From OM182 bacterium MED-G28 (GTDB lineage Bacteria > Pseudomonadota > Gammaproteobacteria > Pseudomonadales > Pseudohongiellaceae): a DNA stretch of 64,000 nt. The translations under genes were made by a program, and so were the position numbers. Shown here in pieces: positions 3,803 through 63,271 of this stretch. The DNA is taken from contig NTJZ01000012.1 in assembly GCA_002457215.1 (NCBI GenBank), forward strand, positions 1-64,000, in the 5' to 3' direction. Each line of letters starts with the position of its first letter. Positions within the stretch are counted from its first letter, which is position 1. A model generated the notes under the pieces. The model was not told the origin of the DNA, did no database searches, and saw only the letters and a list, made by a program, of their open reading frames with translations.

Positions 3803-4390
3803 ATGAACCCCAAACTGTCCCGTCGACGATTTATTAAGGGCGTGATTTATTCAAGTGCGGCTGCATCTGCTGGAGCTGGCTACTACCTGGCAACTGCTCA
3901 GGTCAACTCCAATGCTGTTGTTGAACGGCTGCTCTCCTTACACATAAATGGACAAACCCGTTTGGTCGATGTAGCACCTACAGAAACTCTCGCCTTTACC
4001 CTCCGCAACAAATTGGGTCTGACCGGTTTAAAAGTCGCATGTAATCGCGGCGAATGCGGTGCTTGCACTGTCTTACTAGACAACATCTCAAACTACAGTT
4101 GCTCATTACTTACTCACACAATCAAACAGCGGGCTATTACTACAGTCGAAGGCTTACGCTCAGTTGATGGTCGCTTGAGTGCTGTTCAACAAGCATTTAT
4201 AGAAGAGCTAGCCCCTCAATGTGGTTTTTGCACACCTGGTCAAGTTATGGCAGCTACCGCTTTATTAAGAGCAAACTCCAACCCTAGTCGGGAAGAAGCC
4301 AGACAGGCTTTGGCGGGCAACCTTTGCCGTTGTGGTGCCTATGATCACTACTTAAATGGCGTAATGCGCGCCGCGGAGTTATTGTCATGA
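3803..4390 (+). CDS. Tat-exported (2Fe-2S) subunit of a xanthine-dehydrogenase-family molybdoenzyme
   Basis: This is the small iron-sulfur subunit, passing electrons from the molybdenum centre. The N-terminus has a twin-arginine signal (SRRRFIKG, residues 5-12) followed by a hydrophobic stretch, so the folded complex is expected in the periplasm. Residues of the plant-type [2Fe-2S] cluster are in CNRGECGAC (about 78-86) and a later Cys. The second, alpha-helical cluster uses CGFC and CRC near the C-terminus. The product is 195 aa, compared with about 150-170 for cytoplasmic relatives; the excess is the signal. The stop overlaps the large-subunit start by 4 nt (ATGA). No FAD subunit gene is present, as in isoquinoline-oxidoreductase-like (IorAB) or periplasmic aldehyde oxidase systems. 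Confidence 0.92.
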   Translation: MNPKLSRRRFIKGVIYSSAAASAGAGYYLATAQVNSNAVVERLLSLHINGQTRLVDVAPTETLAFTLRNKLGLTGLKVACNRGECGACTVLLDNISNYSCSLLTHTIKQRAITTVEGLRSVDGRLSAVQQAFIEELAPQCGFCTPGQVMAATALLRANSNPSREEARQALAGNLCRCGAYDHYLNGVMRAAELLS

Positions 4391-6822
4391 CGTTTATTCA
4401 TATTGGAAAAGATTTCGTTCCACCAGACGTTGAAGGCAAAGTAACCGGCGACGCAAAATACGTAGAGGATTTTAAACCTGAAGGCTTGGTATACGCACGC
4501 TTGCTTACCAGTCCTCTGCCTAGTGGTCGCGTCACTAGTATCGACGCTTCCGAGGCGCTTCGCATGGATGGTGTACTCGGCGTAATCACCGCCGATGACT
4601 TACCACCTTCCTCCGCACCGGATGATCCGGTCTTGGCTTCCGACGATGTAACTTATATCGGCCAACCAATTGTCGCTATTGCTGCGATTTCTGATGCGAT
4701 TGCAGAAAATGCAATTGATCAAATCAAAATAGAATTTGAACGCCGAAGCTTTGTTACAGATCCCTTAGAAAGCCTTGTTCAATTTGGACCCAACGCTTAT
4801 CCAGATGGTAACGTCTTAAGACAATCGAATTCTTTAGAAGATGAGAATGCGACAATTCGGGGCGGCATTGCCGAAATTAAGTGGCCGGCCACAGAAATTG
4901 AAAAATTTAGAAATGGTCAAGAACCGACCGGTGTCGATTTTGCCGATGGCTGGACTTACGGTGATTTAGATGCAGCTTTTTCTGAGAGCGCCGTTATTGT
5001 CGAAGAATCCTTCGTCACCGCTGGTACTCCGCACCACTGCATGGAGCCGCGCAGCAGCATGGCTTATTGGCAAAATGGAAAATGCTATTTCTATGCGTCG
5101 ACTCAGAGCCAAAGTGCAGTAGTTGAACCACTAGCAGATTTGCTGGGAATAGCTCCGGAAAACGTTTGCATGATTTCCGAAAATACTGGTGGCGGATTTG
5201 GCTCCAAAGGTCGTGTCTACCCCACTATGGCTATCACTGGAAAATTCTCACAATTATTAAATAGACCGGTGCAACTTCGCATTACCCGCGAAGAAGAATA
5301 TTACCTCGGTGTTGGTAGACCCGGCATGCAAGGCTGGGTAAAAACTGGTGTCCGCGCGGACGGAAGCGTAGCCGCAGTTGATGTAATTATTATCAGCGAT
5401 GGCGGACCGACTGGACGAAATAGTGCCTCTTCCTCAGCGCAACATCTCTCAGTCGTATACACTCCCAGCGCCATGCGCCTTCGCAATATTCCAGTGTTTA
5501 CAAATACCGCGCCAAGAGGCGCTCAGCGGGGGCCAGGCCAAAACGAGATGTCAGCCGCCATTGCACCCATAATGGACAAAGCCGCGCGCCAGTTAGGCAT
5601 GGATCGCGCACAATTTCGACGAGTGAATGCGCCTCATAGTGAATCACCTGTGTATGAAAACCAGGGCCCAATTACAAGTGCGTTCATGACAGAAGCAATT
5701 GATAAAGCCTCAGAGATGTTTAACTGGGCTGAACGTGAAGCTGCGCCGCGCCAAAAAAACGGCAGAAAAGTACGCGGCTTAGGAATTGGCTTGGGCTATC
5801 ACTCAGCTGGCGGTAATGGTTATGACGGCCTAGTCAGAATAACACCAGACGGTCGCATTCATTTGCATAGTGGCGTAGGTAATCTGGGAACATATTCTTA
5901 TGCTGGTACCGCACGAGCCGCAGCAGAAGTTCTCAAATGCCGCTGGGAAAGTTGTGAAATTGCTCGCGGCAGCACCGACAGCCATTTACCTCATGCCTCT
6001 ACACAGGGTGGATCAAATACCATTTTTACTCATACTCGGAGCAATTGGGTAGCCGCAGAAGATGCCGTGGTAAAACTTAAAGAAATTGCAGCAATCGAAT
6101 TTGGCGGCAATGTGGAAGACTACAGTATCGGGAACGAGCGTGTATTTAAAACTGAAGATGCAAACCAGGGATTCAGCTACGGCGAGGCAGCAGCAAAAGC
6201 TGTTGAGCTTGGCGGTCGCTTTAGTGGGGAAGAATATCCAGATGACATTCATCCTATTACTCAACGGGCCGTGCAAGGCATCGCCGGATCAGGTTTAGTG
6301 GGTGTTGCCAAAGACAATCTCCCCAAACGAGGTATCGCACCAGGCTTGATGATTAGTATGGCCGAAGTAGAAATTGATCTCGACACCGGAAAATATGAGG
6401 TAATTGATTATATTGGCATTGCTGATTGTGGAACGATAATTCATCCACAAGGTCTGGCGCAGCAAATTAATGGCGGTGCGGTGTGGGGATTTGGTATGGC
6501 AGGTAGTGAACGCCATGTTTATGATCCACAAAATGCCTTGCCGGCAAACATCGGGTTTTATCAAGCAAAGCTCCCTACAATTTTGGATGTACCGAGTAAC
6601 ATGGAAAGTGGAGCGGTCGACATTGCAGATCCATACAATCCTGCGGGCGGTCGTGGCGTAGGCGAACCATCCCAGGGAAGTGCAGTTGCGGCGGTTACTT
6701 CAGCCATCGCTGATGCATTGGGTCACTCATTCAATCGAGTTCCAATAACACCGGACATGATTGTTAATTTCGCCAATAACGACGAGCAGAGCTCAAGCCC
6801 ATTAGCAATAAATACTTTTTAA
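4387..6822 (+). CDS. Xanthine dehydrogenase family molybdopterin-binding subunit (aldehyde or N-heterocycle oxidase type)
   Basis: This 811-aa catalytic subunit would bind the molybdenum cofactor and hydroxylate an aldehyde or aromatic heterocycle. The N-terminal aldehyde-oxidase a/b hammerhead domain covers about 10-120. The cofactor loop GGGFGSKG is near 275. The C-terminal motif GGRGVGEPSQGS, about residues 756-767, carries the Glu that acts as catalytic base in this family. There is no signal peptide of its own, so it probably hitchhikes through Tat with the small subunit translated just before it (4-nt overlap). No maturation factor (XdhC/CoxF) or cytochrome c partner is adjacent. The substrate cannot be deduced from sequence. 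Confidence 0.92.
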   Translation: MTFIHIGKDFVPPDVEGKVTGDAKYVEDFKPEGLVYARLLTSPLPSGRVTSIDASEALRMDGVLGVITADDLPPSSAPDDPVLASDDVTYIGQPIVAIAAISDAIAENAIDQIKIEFERRSFVTDPLESLVQFGPNAYPDGNVLRQSNSLEDENATIRGGIAEIKWPATEIEKFRNGQEPTGVDFADGWTYGDLDAAFSESAVIVEESFVTAGTPHHCMEPRSSMAYWQNGKCYFYASTQSQSAVVEPLADLLGIAPENVCMISENTGGGFGSKGRVYPTMAITGKFSQLLNRPVQLRITREEEYYLGVGRPGMQGWVKTGVRADGSVAAVDVIIISDGGPTGRNSASSSAQHLSVVYTPSAMRLRNIPVFTNTAPRGAQRGPGQNEMSAAIAPIMDKAARQLGMDRAQFRRVNAPHSESPVYENQGPITSAFMTEAIDKASEMFNWAEREAAPRQKNGRKVRGLGIGLGYHSAGGNGYDGLVRITPDGRIHLHSGVGNLGTYSYAGTARAAAEVLKCRWESCEIARGSTDSHLPHASTQGGSNTIFTHTRSNWVAAEDAVVKLKEIAAIEFGGNVEDYSIGNERVFKTEDANQGFSYGEAAAKAVELGGRFSGEEYPDDIHPITQRAVQGIAGSGLVGVAKDNLPKRGIAPGLMISMAEVEIDLDTGKYEVIDYIGIADCGTIIHPQGLAQQINGGAVWGFGMAGSERHVYDPQNALPANIGFYQAKLPTILDVPSNMESGAVDIADPYNPAGGRGVGEPSQGSAVAAVTSAIADALGHSFNRVPITPDMIVNFANNDEQSSSPLAINTF

Positions 6823-10094: not shown

Positions 10095-11549
10095 TTGAGA
10101 ACTCCATTGAAAAATTCTTCAACAAATAAACTCACAGTAGTCATTAAGAAAGACTGTCCTACATGCCTGCTTATTGAACCTGTTCTAAATGAATTAGTGG
10201 AAAGTTATCGAGACAAGATTTCTGTCTATGTGCAGGATGATCCTGCTTTTCCTTCCAGTATCAGCAATAAGATCGACGATACTTCATTGGAATTCTCTTA
10301 TCGAAACCAAATCGAGATAGTCCCCACACTGATTTCCTCAAACTCAGAACAAGAAGTTGCCAGGACTGTAGGTTGGGATAAGTCCGAGTGGCAACGATTA
10401 ACCGGGCTCTCCAACTTAGGCACTAATCTAGTTGACTTTAAACCTGGCTGCGGCTCCAAATCCCAAGATCCGGGAATGGAGGAACAGTTAGCGGCTCGCT
10501 TTGATAGCGAAATGCTTTCAGCACGGAAGGTTGAACTGGCAGAATCCGAAGATGAGATAGAAGCTTGTTTTGATCGAGGTTGGAGCGATGGCTTACCAGT
10601 GGTTCCACCAACTAGCCTACGAGTCATACGAATGCTTAAGGGATCCCGAAGAGCTGCGAACGAAATCATAGGTAATATTCCTCCCGACAATCTGCCTTGT
10701 ACAATTGAGAAAGTAGCAATCAATGCAGTGATGGCTGGGTGTAAACCGGAATTTTTCCCGACAGTCCTGGCATCAGTAGAGGCAGCACTGCAGGACAGGT
10801 TTTGCATGCATGGCCTGCTATGCACTACCTACTTCTCGGGGCCAGTGGTGGTTGTTAATGGGCCAGTGATAAAAAGAATTGGTATGAATTGTGGAGTAAA
10901 TGCCCTTGGCCAGGGAAATCGAGCCAATGCTACTATTGGCCGAGCCTTACAATTACTGATTCGCAATGTCGGTGGAGGCTTACCCGGTGGTATTGACCGT
11001 GCAGTCATGGGTAACCCTGGAAAATATACTTACTGTTTTGCCGAAGACGAGTCTGATGAAGATTGGGCAACCCTAGCCCAAGATCGTGGCTTCGATAGAT
11101 CAGATTCGGTGGTCAACCTCTTTGCCGGAGAAGGGTTGCAACCGATTGTCGATCAACAATCACGACAGCCTGAGTCTTTAGCTAAAAATATGGCAAACAG
11201 TTTACAGAGTGTGGTCAATTCGAAACTCTACGGATTAGCGGATGCGATTTTAGTTGTTTGCCCAGAGCACCGGCGTGTATTGAAACAAGGTGGCTGGACA
11301 AAGGCTGATCTAAGACAAGCACTACTAGAGAATTTAATGACACCTGGCGCTGATATTATACGTGGCGCTCAAGGTATTGCAGAAGGCATGCCAGAAAAAT
11401 TTAAAAACAAGACACTAAACAAGTTTCGTGAAGATGGTCTGCATATCACGTCGACCGGAGGCAAAGCAGGCATGTTTTCTGCGATCATTAGTGGCTGGGT
11501 GGCATCCGGCGAAAAGGGCAGTCAACTCGTCTCACAGAAAATTCAATAA
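10095..11549 (+). CDS. Thioredoxin-domain protein of the UGSC selenoprotein cluster
   Basis: This 484-aa protein has two parts. Residues 10-110 form a thioredoxin-like domain with the redox motif CPTC (about 20-23) and a cis-Pro-like VPTL near 78. From about residue 150 a second domain begins with GWSDGLPVVPPT, continues through AINAVMAGCKPEF, GMNCGVNALGQGNRANAT and GNPGKYTYCFAED, and ends near residue 470. I recall this second domain next to UGSC-family (seleno)proteins in other bacteria, but its reaction is unassigned. Conserved Cys residues are scattered through it. No ATG supports the N-terminus; the start is a TTG at 10095 or a second TTG at 10107. The UGSC gene follows after 12 bp, so the two are almost certainly co-expressed. 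Confidence 0.75.
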   Translation: MRTPLKNSSTNKLTVVIKKDCPTCLLIEPVLNELVESYRDKISVYVQDDPAFPSSISNKIDDTSLEFSYRNQIEIVPTLISSNSEQEVARTVGWDKSEWQRLTGLSNLGTNLVDFKPGCGSKSQDPGMEEQLAARFDSEMLSARKVELAESEDEIEACFDRGWSDGLPVVPPTSLRVIRMLKGSRRAANEIIGNIPPDNLPCTIEKVAINAVMAGCKPEFFPTVLASVEAALQDRFCMHGLLCTTYFSGPVVVVNGPVIKRIGMNCGVNALGQGNRANATIGRALQLLIRNVGGGLPGGIDRAVMGNPGKYTYCFAEDESDEDWATLAQDRGFDRSDSVVNLFAGEGLQPIVDQQSRQPESLAKNMANSLQSVVNSKLYGLADAILVVCPEHRRVLKQGGWTKADLRQALLENLMTPGADIIRGAQGIAEGMPEKFKNKTLNKFREDGLHITSTGGKAGMFSAIISGWVASGEKGSQLVSQKIQ

Positions 11550-11561
11550 AAGGAGGACAAC

Positions 11562-12083
11562 ATGACTAGTACAATCATGCTAGATCCAACGGCGGAGCTA
11601 AATCCTGTCGAAAAACAGATACTGCCACGACTAGATTCACTGGCAGGAGCAACTGTTGGTCTACTCGATATTTCCAAACCACGGGGCAAAGAGTTTCTTG
11701 ATGAGGTAGAGAAATATCTTGTAGAAATGGGCGCGACTGTAAAACGCTATATGAAACCTACTTTTGCCCGAGTAGCTCCAAATGAGCTCAATCAAAAGAT
11801 TAGCATCGAGTGCGATGCTGTCATTGAAGGATTAGCTGATTGAGGCTCATGTACCTCGTGCAGTTTGCATGACATCATGGATCTTGAGAGTCGCGGCTTA
11901 CCTTCTGGTTTTATTGCCTCTTGCGAATTTGAGCAGGCTGCCGATGCGCAAGGCAAATCCCTTGGGATTAAGCCTAACCGTGTTTTTGTTCCTCACCCTA
12001 TTCAAGACAGAACAGATGACGAAATGGCAGAGCTAGCAAAATCTAAAGTAATAGAAATAGCGGCATTAATCACAAATAGTTAA
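11562..12083 (+). CDS. UGSC family selenoprotein (UGA at 11841-11843 read as selenocysteine)
   Basis: The frame from the ATG at 11562 meets TGA at 11841, but continues open in the same frame to TAA at 12081-12083, giving 173 residues with Sec at position 94. The text around the TGA reads A-D-U-G-S-C-T-S-C-S-L-H-D, exactly the family hallmark. Upstream are GATVGLLDISKPRGKEFLDE and KRYMKPTFARVAP. Downstream are FIASCEFEQAADAQGKSLG and FVPHPIQDRTDDEMAELAKS, all typical of the family. A near-perfect Shine-Dalgarno (AAAGGAGG) precedes the ATG. A hairpin at 11856-11872 is a candidate bacterial SECIS. A selD gene lies in this window. The function is unknown; the U-x-x-C-x-x-C arrangement suggests redox or metal chemistry. 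A conventional gene caller would split or truncate it. Confidence 0.87.
11856..11872 (+). promoter_or_regulatory. Candidate bacterial SECIS hairpin
   Basis: The sequence TCGTGC-AGTTT-GCATGA folds into a 6-bp stem (one G-U pair) with a five-base loop AGUUU containing GU. It starts 12 nt after the UGA codon. The E. coli fdhF SECIS has an upper stem ending UGC-AGGUCU-GCA beginning about 11 nt after its UGA, so spacing, closing pairs and the GU in the loop agree. It lies within the coding sequence, as bacterial SECIS elements must. Recognition by SelB is inferred, not shown. Confidence 0.6.
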
Positions 12084-12115: not shown

Positions 12116-13300
12116 ATGACTAGAGAAGCAGTAATTGTATCAACGGCTCGTACACCTATCGGAAAAGCTTATAGAGGTGCGTTCAATGATACTGATGCGC
12201 CCACACTCGGAGGTCATGTAATTGCGAGTGCCGTGCAAAAAGCAGGCATTGAACCTGGAGAAGTCGATGATGTAATTATGGGTTGCGCTATGCAGCAAGG
12301 ATCATCTGGTCAAAATATAGGTCGCACCGCCGCCATTGCTGCTGGATTACCAAATACAGTTTCTGGCATGAGCATGGATAGACAATGCTCATCAGGCATG
12401 TTGGCAATTGCTACTGCTGCCAAACAGATTATAAATGATCAAATGCCAATTGTTATTGGCGCAGGCCTTGAGTCCATTAGCTTGGTGCAAAATGAACATC
12501 GCAATGGTTATCGTGCGCAAGATCCTAATGTCATTGCAAAATCTGCAGATGCCTACATGTCGATGTTGGAAACAGCAGAAACAGTTTCTAAACGGTATAA
12601 CGTTTCTCGCGATCAGCAAGATGAATATGGACTACAGAGTCAACAGCGCACCGCCGCTGCGCAAGAAGCTGGAAAATTTGATGACGAAATCGTACCACTC
12701 GCCTCAAAGATGGTATTTGTTGATAAAGAAACTAAACAGCAAAGCGTGCACGATGTAGAACTGAAGAAAGACGAGGGGAATCGTCCCACTACCACATTGG
12801 AGGGGCTTTCAGGATTAAAGCCTGTGTTCGAAGGTGGTGTGATTACAGCGGGTAATGCTAGTCAACTCTCTGATGGTGCGTCTGCATCTGTGTTAATGGA
12901 TAGCAAACTTGCCGAACAAAAAGGCCTTGAGCCCTTGGGTGCCTACCGAGGTGTAGCTGTCGCAGGTCTGGACCCAGACGAAATGGGTATTGGGCCAATC
13001 TATGCCGTCCCAAAACTTCTAGAAAGAAATAATCTAAAGATGGACGATATTGGCCTTTGGGAATTAAACGAAGCTTTTGCTGTGCAAGTGATCTATTGCC
13101 GCGACACGCTTGGCATTCCTAATGACTTACTAAATGTAAATGGTGGCGCAATATCGATTGGGCACCCTTACGGGATGAGTGGTGCGCGGATGGTAGGGCA
13201 TGCCTTAATAGAAGGTAAACGGCGTGGTGCTAAATACGTAGTCTGTACAATGTGTGTAGGTGGGGGCATGGGTGCCGCTGGTCTATTCGAAGTCTACTAA
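12116..13300 (+). CDS. Thiolase family protein, acetyl-CoA acyltransferase
   Basis: This 394-aa cytoplasmic thiolase would interconvert acetyl-CoA plus acyl-CoA with 3-ketoacyl-CoA. The nucleophilic Cys is in DRQCSSGM (about residue 87). The catalytic His is in [10 protein letters not shown], and the second Cys in [10 protein letters not shown] near the C-terminus. The ATG at 12116 is preceded by GGAGAAA at 6-8 nt; the in-frame TTG at 12104 is less likely. It follows the UGSC gene by 32 bp on the same strand and may belong to the same transcript, but nothing in the sequence links it functionally to the selenoprotein. Confidence 0.9.
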
Positions 13301-60936: not shown

Positions 60937-61006
60937 TTTTTTCTCCCAAATTCAGCTTATTAAGAGAATTAAGGTAAACTAGGGTTCTCTAGCTTGTGTG
61001 TGGTTT

Positions 61007-63271
61007 ATGAAAACAAATAGCCCAGTCGTAAAACACTTAGTACTCCTTGGTGGTGGCCACAGTCATCTGGCTGTTCTAAAGCATTTAGGAATGAAGCCTG
61101 TTCCAGGTCTTGCTGTTACGTTGATTAGCCGCGACATTAATACCCCTTATTCCGGATCCCTTCCGGGCTACATCAGTGGAGTTTATGATTATGATGACAT
61201 TCATATTGACCTGAGACCGCTCGCACAATTTGCGAATGCCCGTATTATACAAGAAGAGATTACATCAATTGATTTTGATAGAAAGGAGATTGCACTAACC
61301 GCTCGACCTTCAATTTCATTTGACCTCTTATCACTTAATATTGGCTCCAACCCCGATGCATGTAAAATTCCTGGCGCTGATAGATTTGCTTTAGGGATCA
61401 AACCAATACAAAAGTTTATTAATCATTGGCAAACCCTACTCAAAAAAGCCGTCCATAACATACAGCAGGACAAAGAATACAAAATAATAATAGTTGGTGG
61501 CGGACCTGCCAGCGTTGAGCTTGCTTTTGCTGCTCAGTTTCGTATCCAGAAAGAATTACAACTTAAATCAGCAGATACTTCTCTATTAAAAATAAAAATT
61601 ATAAGCGCCGATACGAATTTACTTTCTTTGCATAATCGTCAAGTTCGTCAATTCGCAAAATCAGAACTAGAGGAACGAGGCGTCGAAGTCATTCTTGATA
61701 CTGCGGTTTCCGCATTCGAAGAAACTATCGTAGTTTGTGAAAATGGCAATAAATACTCTGCAGATTCAATGGTATTCGCGACTGGCGCTAGTATTCCCTC
61801 ATGGCCTGGAGAATGTGGCTTAGCGCTCAGCGAAGATGGATTTATTGAAGTTAATGCATATCTACAATCCACCTCTCATGACTGTGTTTTTGCTGCGGGC
61901 GATGCAGCTACCCTCAAAGGTGAACCGCGACCAAAATCGGGTGTTTATGCAGTTCGTCAAGGATTACCGCTGGCGAAAAATCTCATTCGTTTTGCCACTG
62001 GCAAATCATTGACGCGCTACAAACCTCAGCAACATGCTCTAGCACTTATAAGTATGGGCAACAAAACAGCCATCGCCTCACGTAATAATTTTTTCTTTAA
62101 AGGTCGTAGTGTCTGGTCTATTAAAAATAACATCGATACTGCCTTCATAAGGAAATATTCTGCACTTCCCGAGATGACAACCGAACTAAACATCGCTGAT
62201 GGCTTGGTTGATCAGGAAACCGAACGCCAATTAAAACTACATGCTATGCGATGCGCCGGCTGCGGAGCGAAAATAGCAAGCGATGTCTTGCAGGAAGTAT
62301 TACAACAGCTACCGCAATCGAAGCGCAAAGATATACTGAATCAATCCACAGCCGCAGAAGACGCTTCGCTAATAAAACTAGATGATGGTCGAGTGTTGGT
62401 TCAAAGCATCGACCAAATTAAGTCGTTCGTAAACGATCCCTGGCTATTTGCTCGCATTGCAACTAACCATTGTCTAAGTGACATCTATGCGATGGGTTGC
62501 GAACCTCATTCAGCCTTAGCCATTGTTGGCTTGCCTTTCGCAACTAAAAAGTATGGACGTAGTCAATTAAAAGAGTTGATGCTTTCTTGTAGCGAAGTTT
62601 TGCAAGAACATAAATGTGACTTAGTGGGTGGACATTCTGCAGAAGCAGAGGAATTTCATTTTGGACTTTGTATAAATGGATTCATCGATGAAGAAGACCT
62701 TCTAACAAAAAATGGCATGAATGCTGGCGATATTCTGATTCTTACCAAACCATTAGGCACGGGTACACTTCTTGCAGCGGACATGCGCTTTAGAGCATCC
62801 CACCAATGGATGCAAGAAGCTTTAGGCAACATGGAACAATCGAACAGAGAGGCGGCAGCTTGTTTTCAGAAATTTGGAGCCACCGCTTGTACTGACATAA
62901 CCGGTTTTGGTATTGCAGGGCATCTCTTGGAAATGCTTTCGACAAACAATACAGAAATAGAGCTCAATTTGAGTGATATTCCAGTATTATCCGGTGCACT
63001 TGATACATTAGAGCAAAAAATTTACAGCTCGCTACACAAAGACAACAGTCTGGTCGCTCATAGTGTATTTAATCAAGAGGCTTTCGCTCAAGACCCAAAA
63101 TATGCTCTTCTTTTTGATCCTCAAACAGCTGGCGGTTTGCTGGCATCAGTTCCAGAATCTGTAGCAGAAACCTGCCTCACTCGTTTAAAAGAATCTGGCT
63201 ACTCGCAAGCCAAGGCTATTGGTCGCGTTTCCAAGCTTGAAGCATTGCAACCGGCAATTATATTGCAATAA
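61007..63271 (+). CDS. selD: SelD selenophosphate synthetase fused to an N-terminal NAD(P)/FAD oxidoreductase
   Basis: This two-domain fusion of about 754 aa makes selenophosphate, the donor for selenocysteine and selenouridine. Residues 1-390 form a pyridine-nucleotide-disulfide oxidoreductase of the kind described as Nterm_to_SelD (TIGR03169). It begins VVKHLVLLGGGHSHLAVLKH and has a second Rossmann motif IIIVGGGPASVELAFA and the FAD-binding AAGDAAT. Residues 405-754 are SelD. The catalytic Cys is in MRCAGCGAKIASDVL (Cys at about 419, codon at 62261) with the partner Lys three residues later, followed by DGRVLVQSIDQ, VGGHSAEAEEFHFGL and FDPQTAGGLL. The active residue is Cys, not Sec. The presence of SelD supports selenoprotein synthesis in this genome. 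Confidence 0.93.
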   Translation: MKTNSPVVKHLVLLGGGHSHLAVLKHLGMKPVPGLAVTLISRDINTPYSGSLPGYISGVYDYDDIHIDLRPLAQFANARIIQEEITSIDFDRKEIALTARPSISFDLLSLNIGSNPDACKIPGADRFALGIKPIQKFINHWQTLLKKAVHNIQQDKEYKIIIVGGGPASVELAFAAQFRIQKELQLKSADTSLLKIKIISADTNLLSLHNRQVRQFAKSELEERGVEVILDTAVSAFEETIVVCENGNKYSADSMVFATGASIPSWPGECGLALSEDGFIEVNAYLQSTSHDCVFAAGDAATLKGEPRPKSGVYAVRQGLPLAKNLIRFATGKSLTRYKPQQHALALISMGNKTAIASRNNFFFKGRSVWSIKNNIDTAFIRKYSALPEMTTELNIADGLVDQETERQLKLHAMRCAGCGAKIASDVLQEVLQQLPQSKRKDILNQSTAAEDASLIKLDDGRVLVQSIDQIKSFVNDPWLFARIATNHCLSDIYAMGCEPHSALAIVGLPFATKKYGRSQLKELMLSCSEVLQEHKCDLVGGHSAEAEEFHFGLCINGFIDEEDLLTKNGMNAGDILILTKPLGTGTLLAADMRFRASHQWMQEALGNMEQSNREAAACFQKFGATACTDITGFGIAGHLLEMLSTNNTEIELNLSDIPVLSGALDTLEQKIYSSLHKDNSLVAHSVFNQEAFAQDPKYALLFDPQTAGGLLASVPESVAETCLTRLKESGYSQAKAIGRVSKLEALQPAIILQ

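Follow-up and report, generated by a model that had tools for sequence, protein, structure and literature searches.

Judged from its sequence, the segment 11562–12083 of the 64,000-nucleotide stretch of OM182 bacterium MED-G28 analysed here (the window) encodes a UGSC-family selenoprotein, adding a new member to an already known family. The UGA codon at 11841–11843 is almost certainly decoded as selenocysteine (Sec), and the gene product very probably works in partnership with the product of the upstream gene. Both statements taken together are assigned a probability of about 0.83. The following features of the window are involved.

11562–12083, + strand: UGSC-family selenoprotein gene, 173 residues, stop codon TAA at 12081–12083 (PF24696, NF041046)
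11551–11556, + strand: Shine-Dalgarno sequence AGGAGG, 5 nt ahead of the ATG, read from the sequence
11841–11843, + strand: TGA, read as selenocysteine at residue 94 (U94-G95-S96-C97), from column conservation and purifying selection downstream
11856–11872, + strand: candidate SECIS upper hairpin UCGUGC-AGUUU-GCAUGA, from fold, frozen synonymous codons and compensatory changes
10095–11549, + strand: partner gene, 484 aa, with a thioredoxin-like N-terminal domain carrying CPTC, followed by a domain of about 340 aa without a Pfam match
12116–13300, + strand: acyl-CoA acyltransferase (thiolase), from Pfam and NCBIfam; downstream, a UGSC neighbour in part of the family only
60998–63271, + strand: oxidoreductase-SelD fusion (selenophosphate synthetase), 757 aa, TIGR00476 over the cut-off

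Two open reading frames, 11562–11843 (93 aa) and 11865–12083 (72 aa from its first TTG), share a common frame. The pieces 11562–11843 and 11844–12083 are separated by nothing but the TGA, and read-through yields a product of 173 residues with A-D-U-G-S-C-T-S-C at residues 92–100. This product matches PF24696, the UGSC family, with 134.6 bits (5e-39, residues 6–171; cut-off 25) and NF041046 with 139.8 bits against an equivalog cut-off of 125. The curated cut-offs are thus exceeded across the whole domain. In 51 aligned members, the U/C column (U shown as C) and the G, S and C of the motif are invariant; the window protein reads U94-G-S-C97, with Sec at the first position, which is Sec or Cys in the family. 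A preliminary description, made from the sequence alone, had joined the two pieces across the TGA, assigned the product to this family and pointed to a strong Shine-Dalgarno sequence, all of which is borne out. Its expectation of two unrelated proteins in a standard annotation is doubtful, because the NCBI equivalog model NF041046 names a (seleno)protein.

The "UGSC-containing protein" has been in print since 2008, and passages of an ocean survey present it as a major marine selenoprotein and as the fifth most frequent family in the table of prokaryotic selenoproteins, with 255 genes; they assign it no function (PMC2398784). The family also appears in sections of two reviews from 2022 and 2026 (PMC9312934, PMC13188914), and the relevant section of the later one calls the functions of such families largely uncharacterised (PMC13188914). 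The window protein resembles the family, as described in its models and in those survey passages (PF24696; NF041046; PMC2398784), in its whole-length match, Sec column, UxxC motif and occurrence in marine bacteria, with no family-level difference. The present analysis adds the partner gene, the hairpin covariation and the fold model. A search of open-licence PMC papers by the UGSC name returned no title on UGSC function. To our knowledge, no enzyme activity has been assigned to any family member.

The order-wide homologue search covered 293 genomes and gave 36 matches over the cut-off in 25 of them; 35 of the matches have a single internal TGA, and the remaining one has no TGA. From the named genomes, the best 80 of 420 relatives were retained. 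A profile made for this analysis gathered 107 loci from both sets and the window, the duplicates L022 and L024 being dropped. TGA occupies the motif column in 106 of these, including 80 of the 80 named loci, a share that leans toward close relatives because the named loci are the closest of the 420; the exception, L047, carries the Cys codon TGT. A phylum-wide draw of 398 genomes at E 1e-10 found the gene in five genomes, the window's own among them. Five more distant loci from this draw include three with TGA and two with Cys (L176 and L177) at the column; the genome of L176 (G546) is listed with one internal TGA, yet its motif reads Cys. The homologues align across the TGA, so family sequence stands on both flanks, as had been proposed. 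Beyond the TGA, dN is low in eight pairs (0.095–0.218), and dN/dS is 0.07–0.095 in the four of these pairs with unsaturated dS. The family match at 5e-39, the TGA in 106 of 107 loci and the low dN after it mark the observation as more than chance.

Six rows of the order-wide search fell below the UGSC cut-off, five of them with long open frames. Three of these five were read: L052–L054 (498–531 aa) were rejected as UGSC genes, resembling flavoprotein dehydrogenases by eye. The other two measure 513 and 555 aa. Named strains with the gene include Marinobacter bryozoorum DSM 15401 (L134) and Candidatus Litorirhabdus singularis IMCC14734 (L120). The window's genome harbours a second UGSC gene with an in-frame TGA (contig 23, 135869–136363; L021/L024), which has its own partner of 357 aa and adjoins a glucose/sorbosone dehydrogenase-cytochrome gene.

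Bacterial SECIS elements are hairpins located just 3' of the UGA with a G in the apical loop. The window hairpin has this layout: it begins 15 nt past the U of the UGA, and its loop places G-U at 22–23 nt, with the G at 22 nt. Including the lower stem, the predicted fold covers 11842–11885. The energy of the hairpin is unremarkable (z -1.20; 26 of 200 shuffles fold equally well), and it is comparative evidence, not fold energy, that singles it out. Codons +5, +6, +7, +9 and +10 after the TGA show 1.00–1.12 effective codons in 106 sequences (L080 omitted for Ns), compared with an average of 2.74 and a minimum of 1.18 over 48 other conserved columns. Thinning to 24 sequences at 70% non-redundancy leaves +10 as the sole downstream column to pass the filter, at 1.38 versus 2.88 effective codons over 13 others. 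The 21 distinct sequences compared include the Cys gene; all six hairpin pairs form in 15 of the 21 and at least five in 19, whereas synonymous recoding in 300 runs gave means of 2.8 and 8.1 sequences and maxima of 9 and 14, respectively. When the Cys gene is left out, 94.2% of the 120 cells in 20 sequences pair, four cells change on both sides, and slid registers pair at 5–54%. The covariation score was reached in none of 500 shuffles, though shuffles of this kind can be surpassed by sequences that are related. Of the five measures, two stand out less: pairs changed on both sides were matched by 14 and further pair types by 134 of the 500 shuffles.

The compensatory changes include C-G to U-A (L124, L134), C-G to G-C (L055) and U-A to G-U (L048). 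L178 from the phylum-wide draw forms six of six pairs with altered bases, and the paralogue in the same genome shares the hairpin. The frozen synonymous codons and compensatory changes support the candidate SECIS of the preliminary description. A figure legend of the ocean survey mentions a SECIS loop guanosine (PMC2398784). The hairpin is not formed by the distant TGA homologues L038 and L039 (z -0.06 for L039), which may use another SECIS form. The Cys homologues L047, L176 and L177 keep two, four and five of the six pairs, which is no clean loss of the hairpin; the loop G-U at positions 2–3 is absent from all three. Rfam gave no match in the window at gathering scores.

The selD gene reported for the window is present at 60998–63271, fused to a pyridine-nucleotide-disulphide oxidoreductase. 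The fusion exceeds the TIGR00476 cut-off and stays below those of TIGR04369 "fusion_not_SelD" (478 against 700) and PRK00943. A genome search for selA, selB and selC, which had been recommended, recovered the first two: selA with 575 bits, and selB as an N-terminus of 155 aa that runs off a contig end and scores 191.6 bits over profile positions 1–141 of 581, the full-length cut-off being 242. No selC over the cut-off was found in the assembly, which consists of 25 contigs and is 90% complete; ten matches lay below the cut-off, and the eight of these loci inspected carry ordinary tRNA genes (ARAGORN). Both congeners searched possess selC, each beside a homologous gene (49% identical), and one copy of this gene as a query gave no match in the window's assembly. 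An empty assembly search shows nothing by itself. The missing selC fits an assembly gap, since the congeners' selC and its neighbour gene are both not found here.

The comparison of 45 order-mates, 25 with a UGSC match over the cut-off and 20 listed without, concerns related and not independent genomes. Among genomes with a TGA-type gene, selA is present in 24 of 24 and selC in 23 of 24, the miss being the window's genome. The single Cys-type genome has neither, and the 20 genomes without UGSC contain one selA and one selC, both in G011. In 6 of the 24 genomes, which belong to two families, no more than 1.2 kb separates a UGSC gene from selA. The gene order is partner-UGSC-selA-selB-selC in L172 and partner-UGSC-KASIII-like-selA-selB-selC in L173, with SelB recognised by eye in both.

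Other readings of the TGA have to be weighed against this evidence. That a Cys gene acquired the TGA by nonsense mutation or sequencing error, or that the gene is a pseudogene, would agree with the few homologues that have Cys at the column; against it stand the TGA in nearly all loci, the low dN past it, the frozen downstream codons and the co-occurring sel genes, which leave this explanation with a negligible probability. A true stop at the TGA, with a separate short protein on either side and re-initiation for the downstream one, is also very improbable. A TTG start is available for this at 11865, but the Pfam and NCBIfam models span both parts as one domain, and the predicted fold is a single domain enclosing the UGA residue. 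Decoding as Trp or another residue, whether by genome-wide recoding or by near-cognate read-through, is hardly conceivable: TGA terminates 5 of the window's 45 open reading frames that reach 180 aa or more and is therefore not a genome-wide sense codon; those of the homologues read that lack the TGA have Cys in its place, and selA and selC co-occur. Decoding as selenocysteine, as originally claimed, is corroborated by the conserved TGA column, the frozen codons with hairpin covariation, and the co-occurrence with selA and selC.

The partner gene stops 12 nt short of the UGSC start codon. Of the 107 loci, 104 have it next to UGSC in the same orientation (100 upstream and 4 downstream, one of the 4 fused), and L027 has it on the opposite strand; the remaining two loci begin at the UGSC gene, with the upstream side outside the data. 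In L055, UGSC and partner form a fusion in one frame. The N-terminus of the window's partner matches Thioredoxin_2 at E 0.0003, under Pfam's cut-off, and its model (pLDDT 87.9) matches thioredoxins in Foldseek. With duplicates removed, 88 partners exceed 430 aa; 84 of these contain CxTC, and the reads of the other four begin at the edge of the retrieved locus or close to it. The thioredoxin part is missing from the paralogue's partner (L024) and from other distant partners and is therefore not general. The conserved pairing and the fusion make a partnership of the UGSC protein with the upstream-gene product highly probable. A fusion of UGSC to a domain Unknown_1 is reported in one part of the ocean survey (PMC2398784).

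The second domain of the partner has no convincing Pfam family. A PDB sequence search with the partner gave thioredoxins at the N-terminus with E of at least 0.0076 and a few stray chains elsewhere. Similarity of the partner to class I fumarase was rejected as too weak (6mso, E 1.5e-3, TM 0.22, rmsd 17.6; 6uqn). Homology between the partner and the UGSC protein was also dismissed, as the profile comparison gave P 0.066 and a probability of 0.8%; a UGSC match occurs in 1 of 31 partners, at E 0.028.

The model of the UGSC protein was built from 51 sequences, reaches a pLDDT of 95.1 and consists of five strands alternating with helices. Sec94 is placed between strand 86–92 and helix 95–110. A Foldseek search against the PDB returned a flavodoxin first (TM 0.45, a weak match), and lumazine synthases were frequent among the 50 matches shown, which contain no thioredoxin. 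Flavodoxins and lumazine synthases likewise alternate strands and helices, but TM values of 0.34–0.45, identities of 11–18% and other intermixed alpha/beta proteins set the UGSC model apart from them. The thioredoxin fold guessed in print is not what the model displays; it predicts a flavodoxin-like fold instead. Sequence searches of the PDB with the UGSC protein yielded either no match or three chains with E of at least 1.6.

A comparison with selenoprotein B of glycine and proline reductase (GrdB/PrdB, PF07355) provides a tentative lead on kinship, not membership; the hallmark of GrdB/PrdB is the reductive cleavage of glycine, betaine, sarcosine or D-proline, as in clostridial Stickland fermentation. 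PF07355 matches occur in 7 of 26 related genomes, the window's own not among them. GrdB/PrdB-like genes of order-mates (L160–L170) carry an in-frame TGA at UxxC in 11 of 11 read loci, and ten such proteins were aligned (alignment A3, from which L160 was omitted because of Ns). The UGSC profile and A3 align over 76 columns with their Sec positions matched and their Cys positions likewise, at P 0.0014 and a probability of only 17.5%. The score of 28.7 compares with 10.8 for reversed A3; none of 200 column shuffles and one of 200 shuffles in eight-column blocks scored as high. Also in register are an Asp ahead of the strand and, further on, a Gly and a Pro; UGSC proteins are shorter than GrdB/PrdB. 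For 51 UGSC members, the 21 families listed at E up to 5 do not include GRDB/PF07355.

In the proposed mechanism, the UGA would be decoded by the SelA/SelB/SelD system, aided by the hairpin. Within a flavodoxin-like domain, Sec94 and Cys97 would make up a UxxC redox pair where a helix begins after a beta strand. The CPTC thioredoxin-like domain of the partner would probably re-reduce the Sec-Cys pair as electron donor, and the second domain would probably carry substrate specificity. That the UGSC protein is the Sec subunit of a thioredoxin-fed reductase, for which we infer both chemistry and electron flow, is given slightly less than even odds. The wider proposal is considered doubtful: UGSC proteins might be trimmed-down relatives of the Sec domain of the clostridial reductases GrdB and PrdB, forming with their partners two-subunit selenoenzymes of marine bacteria for the reduction or reductive cleavage of small organic molecules, thioredoxin-fed via the fused domain in one branch. 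Paralogous UGSC-partner pairs, two of which exist in the window's genome, may differ in substrate. The conserved thioredoxin-like partner, the confident fold model and the possible GrdB/PrdB link make an old unknown testable as a thioredoxin-driven reductase.

Alternatively, the protein might be a Sec-containing general thiol-disulphide oxidoreductase of the thioredoxin type, the guess made in print, and not half of a substrate-specific reductase. The UxxC motif is in keeping with such a role, but the five-strand alternating alpha/beta model, with flavodoxin as its first (weak) match, speaks against it, and the conservation of the partner points to a dedicated complex. This role is considered unlikely, though well short of negligible.

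The wider neighbourhood is conserved only in part. An open reading frame cluster of the thiolase adjoins UGSC in 54 and a 114-aa gene in 45 of the 80 named loci (best 80 of 420), and the genes beyond the partner in these loci gave no substrate. At 3803–6822, near the UGSC gene, the window contains a molybdopterin hydroxylase pair that is xanthine-dehydrogenase-like and scores under the cut-off for selenium-dependent XDH. G255 (L171, - strand) has a co-directional set of genes for UGSC and its partner, a GrdB-like Sec protein, two GST-like proteins and an alpha/beta hydrolase; as read from the sequence, this gene set suggests the metabolism of an organic compound.
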